DNA of 64,000 bases, taken from contig NZ_CAMLJQ010000008.1 in assembly GCF_946480305.1 (NCBI RefSeq), positions 62,001-126,000 on the forward strand, written 5' to 3'. A model generated the notes under the pieces. It was not told where the DNA came from and did not search any database. It saw only the letters and a program-made list of their open reading frames with translations. A program made the translations under genes and the position numbers. The DNA is from an uncultured Caldimonas sp. GTDB lineage: Bacteria; Pseudomonadota; Gammaproteobacteria; Burkholderiales; Burkholderiaceae. This document shows, in pieces, positions 4,061-64,000 of this stretch. Position 1 is the first letter of the stretch. Each line of letters starts with the position of its first letter.

Positions 4061-5329
4061 TCAGGCGAGGTCTTCAGCGACCCCGTTGCGCGGCAGCGCG
4101 GTCGCGCTCCGCGTATCGGGCACCACGGCGCGCTCTTCGCGCACCGCGCGGCGACCCTGCCGCTTGCGCAGCCAGATCACCACGCCGGTGATCGACAGCA
4201 GGGCGGTCACGACCCCCAGCAGCACCACGAGCAGGCGGTACGGCAGGCCGAACACCTTGCCCATGTGCAAGGCCGCCAGCCAGCTGGTGAAGGTGTTGCC
4301 CGGCGCGATGGTCGGGTGCTCGAAGGCGATCTCAGCGCCGTGGCGGTCCTGCGCCGAGAAGTAGACGATGGTGTGGCCGTGGTCCGACGAGAAGTCCTTG
4401 GTGCTGGTGACCGAATAGGCCCATGCGGCGTGGTCGCGCGCGAACATCAGGGCATCTTCTTCGACGACCTCGAAGCCGTGGCGCTGTGCCTGCGCCGCCA
4501 TCAGTTCGCGGCCCCGCTCCCGGGCCTGCTCCCAGCCCATGTTGGCCTGCATCAACGGCGCGTGTTGCAGGTCGGGCAGTTGATCATGCGCATCGACCGT
4601 GGACACCATGCGCTTGAGCACGGGAATGTAGAGCTCGTCGCGCAGGTTCAGGCTGACGCTCGAGACCGCGTACATCAGCAGCATGCCCCACAGCCACAGG
4701 CTGGCTGCGCGGTGCAGGTCGAAATTGATGCGATACGCACTGCCGGACCACTTCACCAGCCATGCGGGCTTCCAACCCTTGAGGAAGCCTTGGCGGCCCC
4801 GGGGAAAGGTGAGGTAGGCGCCGACGAAGCAGTCGAACATCCAGACGAACGACACCACGCCGAACAGCCACATGCCCCACGGGTAGGGAATCGTCAGCGC
4901 AAAGTGCAGCTGGTAGACCAGCGGCATGAAGTGCACGCGGTCGAACACCCATGCACCGCGGTTGCGCTTGCCGAGCAATTGCCCCGTGTAGGGGTCGGCG
5001 AACACCTCGTACCACACCACCGTCTGCGCGTCGGCCGGACCTTCCATCCGCCAGGCGTAGAGCGTGGCGCTGTGGCCCGCGTCGCGGTGCAGCGGGTGAT
5101 AGTCGAACTGCGCGCCGGGCAGTTGTGCGGCGACGCGCTCGCGCAGCACCAGCGCGTCGAGCAGCGGCTCGCCCGGCCGGTCTTCGACGAGCCGCAGCTC
5201 CGGGTTGAGGGCGGTGTCGATCTCGTCGTTGAACGCGAGCAAGGCACCGGTGATGCCGGCGATCAGCAGGAAGAAGGCCGTTGCCAGCCCTGCATACCGG
5301 TGCGCGAGCACCCAGAAACCGCGGCTCAT
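4061..5329 (-). CDS. PepSY-associated membrane protein
   Basis: This 422-residue inner-membrane protein has transmembrane segments near residues 10-32 (LATAFFLLIAGITGALLAF), 145-170, 190-210 and close to the C-terminus (LLVVLLGVVTALLSITGVV). It resembles the PepSY_TM family, whose members often accompany siderophore receptors and are proposed to reduce iron, although few have been tested. I chose ATG 5329 because it starts the first membrane helix; the longer frame to 5527 runs through exbD and adds low-complexity residues. It lies 4 bp after exbD and is probably the last gene of the tonB-exbB-exbD group. A ferric-reductase role is inference. Confidence 0.85.
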   Translation of the reverse strand: MSRGFWVLAHRYAGLATAFFLLIAGITGALLAFNDEIDTALNPELRLVEDRPGEPLLDALVLRERVAAQLPGAQFDYHPLHRDAGHSATLYAWRMEGPADAQTVVWYEVFADPYTGQLLGKRNRGAWVFDRVHFMPLVYQLHFALTIPYPWGMWLFGVVSFVWMFDCFVGAYLTFPRGRQGFLKGWKPAWLVKWSGSAYRINFDLHRAASLWLWGMLLMYAVSSVSLNLRDELYIPVLKRMVSTVDAHDQLPDLQHAPLMQANMGWEQARERGRELMAAQAQRHGFEVVEEDALMFARDHAAWAYSVTSTKDFSSDHGHTIVYFSAQDRHGAEIAFEHPTIAPGNTFTSWLAALHMGKVFGLPYRLLVVLLGVVTALLSITGVVIWLRKRQGRRAVREERAVVPDTRSATALPRNGVAEDLA

Positions 5330-10948: not shown

Positions 10949-12014
10949 GTTCGTCTGCAACCGCCGTCAATGGCTCGCCACGGTGGTGGCTGCGGCCAGC
11001 GGCGTGGCGCTGCCGACCGCCGGGGCCGCAACGCCGGTACGTTTGGCCGCCACCTGGCAGTGCGGCGCCGGCTATCAAGTGGGGGTGCTCGAAGCACGCG
11101 ATCGCCAACTGATGGCCACCACCGCGATCGACGTGCCCACCCGTGCGCATGCGCTGATCGCCGAACCCGGCGGCACCTTGCTGACCGTAGCCCGCCGTCC
11201 TGGCGACTGGCTGCTGCGCTGGCGGCCCGATGGCGAGGTGGTGCGGCAGGCCTGGGCCGAGCCGGACCGCGCCTTCAATGGCCACGCGCTGCTCAGCGCG
11301 GACGGGCGCTGCCTCTACACCACCGAGACCGACCTCGAAACCGGCAACGGCCTGATCGGGGTGCGCGACGCAGGCTCGCTGGAAAAGCTCGCGGAGTGGC
11401 CCACCGGTGGCGCCGACCCGCACGCAATGCTGCTCGATGCTCGTGGCGACCTCGTCGTCGCGAACGGCGGCATCCGCACCCTGCCGGAAACCGGGCGCAT
11501 CAAGCTCGACCTCGACCGCATGGATTCGTCGCTCGCCCGACTGTCGGCTCGCGATGGCGCGTTGACGGGCGCATGGCGCGTCGACGACCGCCGCCTGAGC
11601 CTGCGTCACCTCGCCTGGGTGGGCGAGCCCGGCGGCGTGCTGGCGATCGCGATGCAGGCCGAGCACGACGACACGCAGCGCAAGGCTGCCGCACCGGTGC
11701 TGGCGCTGTGGGACGGCCGATCGGTGCGCGCACTCGACGCCGAGGTCGGCCTGGCCGGCTACGGGGGTGACGTGGCGTGCTCGGCGGGCGTCATCGCCGT
11801 CAGTTGCCCGCGTGCCAACGGGGTGGCCCTCTGGAGCGGCAACGGCGACTGGCGGCGCCTTGTGCCCTTGCCCGAAGCCTGCGCGCTGGCGCCCCACGCC
11901 AGCGGAGGCTGGTGGGTCGGCGGAGCGCCCGAATGGCTGCGGCATGACGGCGTGGCAGGTGCGCTGCCGGCGGGGTTGCGGCTGGACAACCACTGGCTGC
12001 GCCTGAGCGCCTGA
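10932..12014 (+). CDS. DUF1513 family protein
   Basis: The 360-residue product has an N-terminal signal with an [14 protein letters not shown] stretch, possibly twin-arginine. Its body shows recurring segments typical of a seven-bladed beta-propeller of the DUF1513 family ([41 protein letters not shown]). The molecular function is unknown. Position as last gene of the imelysin/di-haem operon points to a periplasmic iron-related role. ATG 10932 lies inside the end of the previous gene; a second ATG at 10938 is possible. Confidence 0.88.
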
Positions 12015-23759: not shown

Positions 23760-23835
23760 GGCCTGGTAGCTCAGTTGGTAGAGCAGCGGATTGAAAATCC
23801 GCGTGTCGGTGGTTCGATTCCGCCCTAGGCCACCA
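23760..23835 (+). tRNA. tRNA-Phe (GAA)
   Basis: The 76-nt gene folds as a standard cloverleaf. The acceptor arm is GGCCTGG paired with CTAGGCC, the anticodon stem GCGGA/TCCGC encloses loop TTGAAAA with anticodon GAA at 23793-23795, and the T arm contains GGTTCGATTCC. The CCA end is encoded. It follows the ntrX-like gene by 20 bp; TATATACTG at about 23739-23747 may be its -10 region. Confidence 0.97.
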
Positions 23836-60988: not shown

Positions 60989-62872
<1,884 letters not shown>

Positions 62873-62906
62873 GGTGAGCGGCGGAGGGTGAGCCGGGTGT
62901 TCACGG

Positions 62907-62966
62907 GCAATAAAGTCCGCGACAGAGCAATAAAGCTTGCGACATGGCAATAGAGTCTGCGACACC
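62907..62966 (+). repeat. Three contiguous 20-bp repeats at the element end (TnsB-site-like)
   Basis: Units begin at 62907 (GCAATAAAGTCCGCGACAGA), 62927 (GCAATAAAGCTTGCGACATG) and 62947 (GCAATAGAGTCTGCGACACC). GCAATA-AG-----GCGACA is shared by all. Contiguous sites are the arrangement of the Tn7 right end; in Tn7 they are 22 bp and bind TnsB. No clear fourth copy follows. Confidence 0.78.
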
Positions 62967-63344
62967 GTCACGGCGGTGGTGCCGCCGCGATAGCGGCTTT
63001 GGGCTAGTTTGGAACTTCAAAATTGCAAGCTGGGCGGGACGGCGCCACATTCGAACGAGAGCCTTCGCGATGGAGACGATGACCGTTTGAAGTTTTTGAC
63101 CGGTCGCTCAAGGTTAAACGGCGCCCTCCTCAATTGCCTGAACATGCGATTCGTGCAACATCGTGGCGAACTGCCTCGAAAAGGCCAGCGGGCGGATGCG
63201 AACGTACAAAGCCGAGCCAGCAAAGCCGGCACCGTCTTCGTCGTCACGCGGTTGTTTGGACCTGCGGCAGCTGCAGGGCTCTGGCTCGCGCCCGAGCCAG
63301 AGGTGGACTATCCCGACAGGCGGCTGCAGCAGCGACGGGAAGTT
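62967..63344. other. Stretch without a convincing gene inside the element end
   Basis: After the repeats comes a short hairpin-capable GGCGGTGGTGCCGCC (62982-62996), then sequence without a gene I trust. An open frame on the + strand (63009-63407, 132 codons) has no ribosome site or recognised motif, and overlaps the ImmA/IrrE gene. Similar frames lie on both strands and look incidental. A small unidentified cargo gene cannot be ruled out. Confidence 0.5.
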
Positions 63345-64000
63345 TCATGCGCCCCATTTCCGCGGCTCCCAAACCTTGTCTCCCTGAGACATGTGGAGCA
63401 ACGTTAGCGTGTACCCATAGTTGTCGCACGTGAGCTTCATCTCCCGGGCCGACGCATCTACATGCGCATGCTCGAACCAAGATTGAAGTGAGACGTGCCG
63501 GCCATCGCGGCATGTACTCACACTCTCGTCGGCAGCGATGGTGGCGGGCGGCAACTTAACAACGCGGCCCTTGGTCCTGAAGAATGCGCCGTTGCTCCGA
63601 GCCCTGTCGGAGGACACCGCCCAGTCCATGAACCCGTCTCGCGAGAGGATCAGCAGCGCGCTCTCTGTTGTCGACCTAATCCATCGCAGCGCAACAGCTG
63701 TCAGCGAAACCCCAAACATTGCTGAAGCGGCCGACAATACGTTGAAGTCGACAGCTCCCGAGCCAGTGGCCGCGCGAAACTGCTTCATCGGCATAAGCAG
63801 GTTCGACGCGAAGTCATCGGCTTCAGCTTCGATGGACTTCTGCTCCGGGCCCCAGTGCACCATGTCGGCCTGCGAGCACTGAAACTCTTCCTGAGCGAGA
63901 CGGTGGATGAGGTAGTGTCCAAGCTCGTGTGCCTGAGTGAAGCGAACCCGACCGACCGACTTTAGCTTCTCGTTGTAGAGCAGCGCCCATCCCTTTGACC
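63345..64000 (-). CDS. ImmA/IrrE family metallo-endopeptidase, 5'-truncated by the window
   Basis: The frame is open to the right edge; the last 218 codons are here. A zinc-protease motif HELGHYLIH (63915-63929 encode HELGH) follows RVRFTQA, and a conserved stretch with EAEADDFASNLLMP lies downstream, both typical of COG2856 (ImmA/IrrE). Such enzymes cleave a repressor, or are the toxin-like partner of a helix-turn-helix protein, in mobile elements, phages and defence loci. The N-terminus, perhaps with a DNA-binding domain, is outside. Lower GC and mixed codon use set it apart from the chromosome genes. Confidence 0.86.
   Translation of the reverse strand, partial: SKGWALLYNEKLKSVGRVRFTQAHELGHYLIHRLAQEEFQCSQADMVHWGPEQKSIEAEADDFASNLLMPMKQFRAATGSGAVDFNVLSAASAMFGVSLTAVALRWIRSTTESALLILSRDGFMDWAVSSDRARSNGAFFRTKGRVVKLPPATIAADESVSTCRDGRHVSLQSWFEHAHVDASAREMKLTCDNYGYTLTLLHMSQGDKVWEPRKWGA

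Follow-up and report, generated by a model that had tools for sequence, protein, structure and literature searches.

A probable Tn7-like transposon end beside glmS, with capP as its first cargo gene, in an uncultured Caldimonas sp.

The Locus Downstream of glmS

The window, by which we mean the whole 64,000-nucleotide stretch of DNA that was analysed, carries glmS close to its right-hand border, and the 1.1 kb that follows the gene holds a TGT terminus, a short array of repeats and one gene that runs on past the border. The features discussed below are as follows.

60989–62872, plus strand: glmS, whose 627-aa product has SIS and glutamine amidotransferase domains
62873–62897, plus strand: attTn7 spacer, the 25 nt that separate the insertion point from the glmS stop, assigned from the sequence
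62893–62897, plus strand: CCGGG, putative first copy of a 5-bp target-site duplication, designated by position only; its second copy, beside the far end, would fall beyond the window
62898–62964, plus strand: probable glmS-proximal (right-type) transposon end, with the TGTTCACG terminus and three head-to-tail putative TnsB sites
62965–63344, no strand assigned: 380 bp that separate the array from capP, without a convincing gene
63345–64000, minus strand: capP, which encodes the ImmA/IrrE-type protease belonging to the CapH-CapP switch; the C-terminal 217 aa are visible before the gene runs off the window

Tn7 is a transposon with the proteins TnsABCDE that targets glmS at the site termed attTn7, and it is TnsD that recognises the 3′ end of the gene. 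In the window, the TGT at 62898 starts 25 nt past the glmS stop (62872), just as a preliminary description of this DNA had read it, and the corresponding distance between stop and end is 22–25 nt in six relatives (G255, G351, G827, G169, G303 and G328). Among the best 80 of at least 586 confirmed glmS stretches, the best-scoring glmS DNA is that of locus L003, with 83.5% identity, and L042 is 83.7% identical over a partial stretch only, so the loci fetched include no close relative. The sole tRNA gene found in the window is a tRNA-Phe (GAA) at 23760–23835.

The Array of Putative TnsB Sites

The sequence TGTTCACGGG starts at 62898 and leads into three head-to-tail repeats, namely GGCAATAAAGTCCGCGACA at 62906, AGCAATAAAGCTTGCGACA at 62926 and GGCAATAGAGTCTGCGACA at 62946, which follow one another in two steps of 20 bp; Tandem Repeats Finder calls the same array at 62907–62964 with a period of 20. 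Identity to copy 1 is 79% for copy 2 and 89% for copy 3. The preliminary description had spoken of three tandem repeats built on one core, and here the three copies stand but the shared exact core does not, as AATAAAGTC is exact in copy 1 only, compared with AATAAAGCT in copy 2 and AATAGAGTC in copy 3. When up to three mismatches are allowed, the repeat occurs three times in the 64 kb, against a mean of 0.05 and a maximum of 1 in shuffled sequences, so that none of 100 shuffles has three occurrences. Tandem Repeats Finder also calls five further short tandem repeats in the window.

Several properties of a Tn7-like end are thus found together: the TGT terminus at 62898, an array of three putative TnsB sites of about 20 bp at that terminus, and a packed arrangement of sites that faces glmS from just downstream of the gene. 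The sites lie at +17, +37 and +57, a register identical to that of the glmS-side end in G827, which is described below. The 380 bp that separate the array from the first cargo gene (62965–63344) show no Rfam match at gathering score and no repeat array.

Arrays of this kind were also sought after glmS in other genomes. Eighty glmS loci were fetched, being the best 80 of at least 586 confirmed stretches; seven were skipped (six had no glmS end by motif and one met a contig end), and the remaining 73 plus the window made up the 74 loci scored. The scoring took in repeats at 18–24 bp spacing up to 130 nt past glmS, with a threshold of 14 of 16 matches. Within this set of the best 80, the threshold was reached after glmS at 13 of the 74 loci, as opposed to 6 of 2220 control stretches drawn from those loci, and repeat arrays are therefore much commoner just past glmS than elsewhere in these loci. 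The array of the window scores 13 in this survey, which is below the threshold. Twelve of the 13 high-scoring loci share a 20-bp spacing and a core resembling AATAAAGTC; the other, L050, has a 23-bp spacing and a core that is not of this kind. As a separate observation, locus L031 (Duganella radicis) carries two different repeat arrays past glmS, at 11866 and 12009 (a distance of about 140 bp), which resembles the outcome of two successive insertions at attTn7.

Homologous Ends in Other Genomes

The segment 62880–64000 is matched in eight of 399 genomes of the family, and the end itself in two, G255 and G351, whose ends are identical to that of the window at 54 and 52 of 67 nt. In both genomes the homology to the window begins exactly at the TGT, 22 and 23 nt past the glmS stop, and the sequence preceding the TGT differs from that of the window. 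Beyond the end, both contigs carry what read as insertion-sequence-like genes and stop within about 800 bases. TniQ was not found in these two draft genomes, and no relative of the G827 TnsB was found in them or in G498, which suggests that ends of the window's type may sometimes stand without a transposase.

There was no match to 62880–64000 in 20 genomes of glmS relatives, and the end pattern, with up to two mismatches, recovered only G351 and G255 themselves among nine genomes of each of their genera. Across 399 genomes of the order, the same pattern at the same tolerance gave 16 matches in 16 genomes, compared with seven for a reversed control; eight of these 16 loci were read, and one of them, in G498 (L129), is adjacent to glmS, with a single-site end beginning TATTCACGGG at the same position past the gene as the other ends. 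Comparison of the end with 399 relatives of G003, at E values of up to 1, gave matches in 122 of them, mostly short, from which G827 was followed and G830 was looked at. No match to the end sequence was found in plasmids, and viral contigs returned nothing for capP and nothing for the end pattern.

Among the loci compared, 62898–63344 matches only G255, G351, the far end of G827, a remnant at L017 and short stretches at L087 and L135. At L017 the 3′ end of glmS and the sequence downstream of it are duplicated (4090–4180) about 150 bp past the true stop, and a one-site remnant of a window-type end follows the duplicated 3′ end; the duplication is possibly the trace of an element that came and went. 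Together, the single-site ends past glmS at L129 and L017 suggest that remnants of such ends do occur.

Complete and Partial Elements in Relatives

Both ends, an exact 5-bp duplication outside them and tns homologues between them are present in three relatives, G827, G169 and G303. The glmS-side end of G827 is packed, lies at position 9165 of contig C153, 23 nt past glmS, and has its sites at +17, +37 and +57; the far end, at position 14920 of contig C70, is spaced, with sites at +17, +65 and +119, and the first 27 nt of this far end match the window end at 26 positions. The duplication ACTCC stands outside both. The G827 element is split over these two contigs without overlap. C153 stops just past the GPPGTGKT motif of an ORF that by reading is McrB-like, a fragment that matched no profile, and C70 starts with an ORF that also reads as McrB-like, followed by McrC (PF10117, 3.8e-68); the two contigs are linked on the basis of this reading of the genes, the types of the two ends and the duplication.

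The G827 element encodes a TnsA (PF08722, 6.1e-10), a TnsB that has no Pfam match and finds the Tn7 TnsB of PDB 7pik at 1.3e-42, a TnsC-like ATPase (AAA_22 at 1.2e-5, just below the Pfam cut-off), a TniQ (PF06527) and a TnsD (PF15978, 2.6e-37), for the piece of which no PDB relative was found. In this draft assembly, both TnsC and TnsD are divided between two reading frames. The genes for the 320-aa TniQ, the TnsD and a small HTH_3 protein form a single minus-strand group (L192:6922–9821). With TniQ beside TnsD, the relatives possess two TniQ-type proteins, and TnsE gave no match in eight genomes in a search that had no positive control.

Relatives of the G827 TnsB occur in 17 of the 399 family genomes, and the surroundings of seven of these were fetched (G328, G169, G303, G125, G387, G095 and G244). 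An array past an intact glmS end is present in three of the seven, G328, G169 and G303. The packed end of G169 lies at C1:766004, 23 nt past glmS, and its far end at 791837, which makes an element of 25.8 kb with GCCGC outside both ends and homologues of TnsA, TnsB, TnsC, TniQ and TnsD (PF15978, 2.1e-52). The ends of G303 lie at C1:3940112, 22 nt past glmS, and 3976980; its element of 36.9 kb has homologues of the same five proteins, and GTAGC forms an exact duplication outside both ends. The termini of G303 are TATTC and GAATA rather than TGT and ACA (L253:10112 and L254:6976–6980), so TGT/ACA termini are not universal in the lineage; the homologous ends of G255, G351 and G827 all start with TGT. 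The end in G498 likewise begins with TATTC.

Of the other five genomes fetched, G328 has a packed end 25 nt past glmS and, from 5.6 kb on, tnsA, tnsB, tnsC and a tniQ, with no TnsD match and no far end before the contig ends. No glmS lies in the part fetched of G387, G095 and G244. The minus strand of G125 (L257, around 10690) has an array that extends over the glmS stop; by reading, the last glmS codons differ from those of the window GlmS and the stop is apparently supplied by the element, which places the insertion inside the coding end of glmS and not 25 bp past it.

The packed end faces glmS alike in G827, G303, G328 and G169, and tnsABC read towards glmS in G169 but away from it in the other three. 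The first tns gene lies about 8.4 kb from the glmS-side end in G827, 5.6 kb in G328, 5.8 kb in G169 and 24 kb in G303, so that the absence of tns genes from the last 1.1 kb of the window is to be expected.

An empty glmS site was looked for by way of the far flank of the G827 element, and no clean one was found. The 4-kb flank (L170:10141–14109) is 98.6% identical in G386 (L222), in which no glmS end was found by motif within the 19.9 kb fetched around the match, so that G386 does not give a clean empty site. These results suggest that the flank of the G827 element itself moves.

capP at the Start of the Probable Cargo

Counting inwards from the transposon end, capP comes first, starting 380 bp in and open as far as the window reaches. 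The fragment matches Peptidase_M78 (6.4e-12), the PADLOC capP profile (5.7e-61) and the CapP of PDB 7t5t (3.3e-63 over residues 2–214 of 217), and it carries a HELGH motif at residue 24. The CapP protease that a CBASS under CapH-CapP control would require is present, with its N-terminal part beyond the window; since the match starts at residue 76 of the 7t5t chain, that part amounts to about 75 residues. The CapH-CapP switch of CBASS was described by Lau et al. 2022, as cited in PMC13373217. The likeness to it consists in the matches to the PADLOC profile and the solved CapP structure, and the difference in that the capP of the window sits at the tip of a probable transposon, with capH and the controlled operon predicted to lie outside the window.

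Nine homologous capP loci were examined, chosen by hand from six of 116 plasmid records and three of eight genome matches, and eight of the nine have a CBASS cyclase no more than 3 kb from capP. The cyclase is identified by annotation in Polaromonas, Proteus, Klebsiella, Thauera and Citrobacter and by profile in G140, G189 and G287, although the eight amount to fewer independent cases because the Proteus, Klebsiella and Citrobacter loci are near-copies. The Acinetobacter locus has no annotated cyclase, and a neighbouring gene there matches a candidate defence profile. Given this association, the cargo beyond 64000 is predicted to include CBASS, as the likeliest though not the sole option.

A Probable Tn7-Like Element and Its Alternatives

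We consider it highly probable that a Tn7-like transposon inserted at attTn7 has its glmS-proximal end at 62898, and that its cargo starts from the glmS side with capP as its first gene. The preliminary description had proposed a Tn7-family end at attTn7, and the homologous ends at the same place in G255 and G351, together with the elements of G827, G169 and G303, bear this out. In such an element, TnsD would have recruited TnsC after binding at the 3′ end of glmS; TnsA and TnsB, bound to the three packed sites of the window and to spaced sites at the far end, would have excised the element, which would then have been joined about 25 bp past glmS with a 5-bp duplication. The cargo brought in would begin beside glmS, with capP first. 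By homology, CapP would become active on single-stranded DNA arising during infection or DNA damage and would then cut the repressor CapH, so that the neighbouring operon, most likely a CBASS just past the window, would be switched on. The element's own tns genes, its far end, capH and the CBASS operon would all lie beyond 64000.

The other expectations of the preliminary description concerned what the element carries, and they fared unevenly. Defence cargo gains support from capP as the first gene (PADLOC, PDB 7t5t), whereas the view that this is the most likely place for an undescribed system is weakened, as the visible gene belongs to the described CapH-CapP switch; for a guide-RNA system, also raised there, the visible 1.1 kb offers nothing that points to one.

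It is improbable, though it deserves weighing, that the end is a solo or degenerate one, the Tn7-like element having been mostly lost or replaced so that the end now borders an unrelated island containing capP. Single-site ends do stand past glmS at L129 and, after the duplicated glmS 3′ end, at L017; neither TniQ nor a relative of the G827 TnsB was found in G255 and G351; and sites 2 and 3 of the window have drifted from site 1. However, the TGT terminus has been kept along with the very site register that G827 shows at its glmS-side end, an open cargo gene starts 380 bp inside, and with 5.6–24 kb between end and tns genes in four relatives, their absence within 1.1 kb means little.

We think it very unlikely that the Tn7-like element is a CRISPR-associated transposon (CAST), in which a guide-RNA complex would provide a second targeting route. 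The relatives do have a second TniQ besides TnsD, and type I-B1 CASTs likewise target glmS through TnsD according to the portion of PMC11406308 available, but that same portion reports the I-B1 type only in cyanobacteria; moreover, the visible 1.1 kb contains no CRISPR-like repeat, no cas gene and no Rfam match, and no cas gene was noticed when the ORFs of the G827 element were inspected. Hardly any weight attaches to the idea that a chance or regulatory tandem repeat, unrelated to transposition, happens to lie past glmS, a reading that was rejected because, for all the five further tandem repeats in the window, none of the 100 shuffles reaches three occurrences, and against which also stand homology elsewhere that begins exactly at the TGT while the flanks differ, and the target duplications that accompany such ends in three genomes.

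Relation to Known Systems

The window resembles Tn7 in its insertion about 25 bp past glmS, in its TGT terminus and in the packed-site end that faces the gene, and the relatives resemble it in their far end, in TnsABC plus TnsD and in the 5-bp duplication. The differences on the side of the relatives are that they carry cargo between the glmS-side end and the tns genes, that they have a second TniQ and gave no TnsE match (eight genomes, no positive control), and that the tnsABC of G169 read towards glmS. The end itself also differs, in that the right end of Tn7 has four overlapping 22-bp sites, going by the available portion of PMC11406308, in contrast to the three of the window at exact 20-bp steps.

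According to Benler et al. 2021 (PMC8649781), 6,549 Tn7-like elements were delimited by arrays of TnsB sites at both ends, and 96% of them have cargo; defence systems figure in the title, the main text mentions CBASS twice, and these elements are otherwise of the same kind as that of the window. The words glmS and Burkholderi- are absent from the main text, so the present lineage is not singled out there. CBASS in Tn7-like elements has also been reported for Shewanella CASTs, as given in the available part of PMC12452197. The element of the window is a known kind of system, Tn7-like with defence cargo, and the case suggests that a Tn7-like end is recognisable from 67 bp of raw sequence beside glmS and that the content beyond it can be forecast.

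Cargo Beside glmS in Relatives

Different defence systems occupy the region closest to glmS in three relatives: G827 carries a type I restriction enzyme there, G169 has Gabija (GajB 1.2e-228 and GajA 3e-265, with no match for the ORF closest to the end), and G303 has Avs1 (Avs1a 7.1e-155 and Avs1b at E = 0). It is a tentative proposal, and one that may well prove wrong, that the stretch between the end and the tns genes serves as a dedicated slot in which defence systems are exchanged, within a lineage of Tn7-like elements that target glmS in Burkholderiales and would have TnsD and a second TniQ instead of TnsE. The slot would be occupied by type I restriction in G827, Gabija in G169, Avs1 in G303 and a CapH-CapP-controlled CBASS in the window, and the tns block would be invertible relative to the ends, as in G169. 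G328 does not fit this proposal so far: two of the four proteins in its slot were scanned, and neither matches a PADLOC profile. What might be new here are the defence slot beside glmS and the make-up of TnsD plus TniQ with no TnsE detected.

Two-ended elements with exact duplications, carrying different defence systems at this one position, suggest that in this bacterial group attTn7 serves as a permanent docking site for anti-phage systems, which could be mined directly from the kilobases past glmS. In G498, a methyltransferase and a Helicase_II/MzaC-like protein are encoded past the end.
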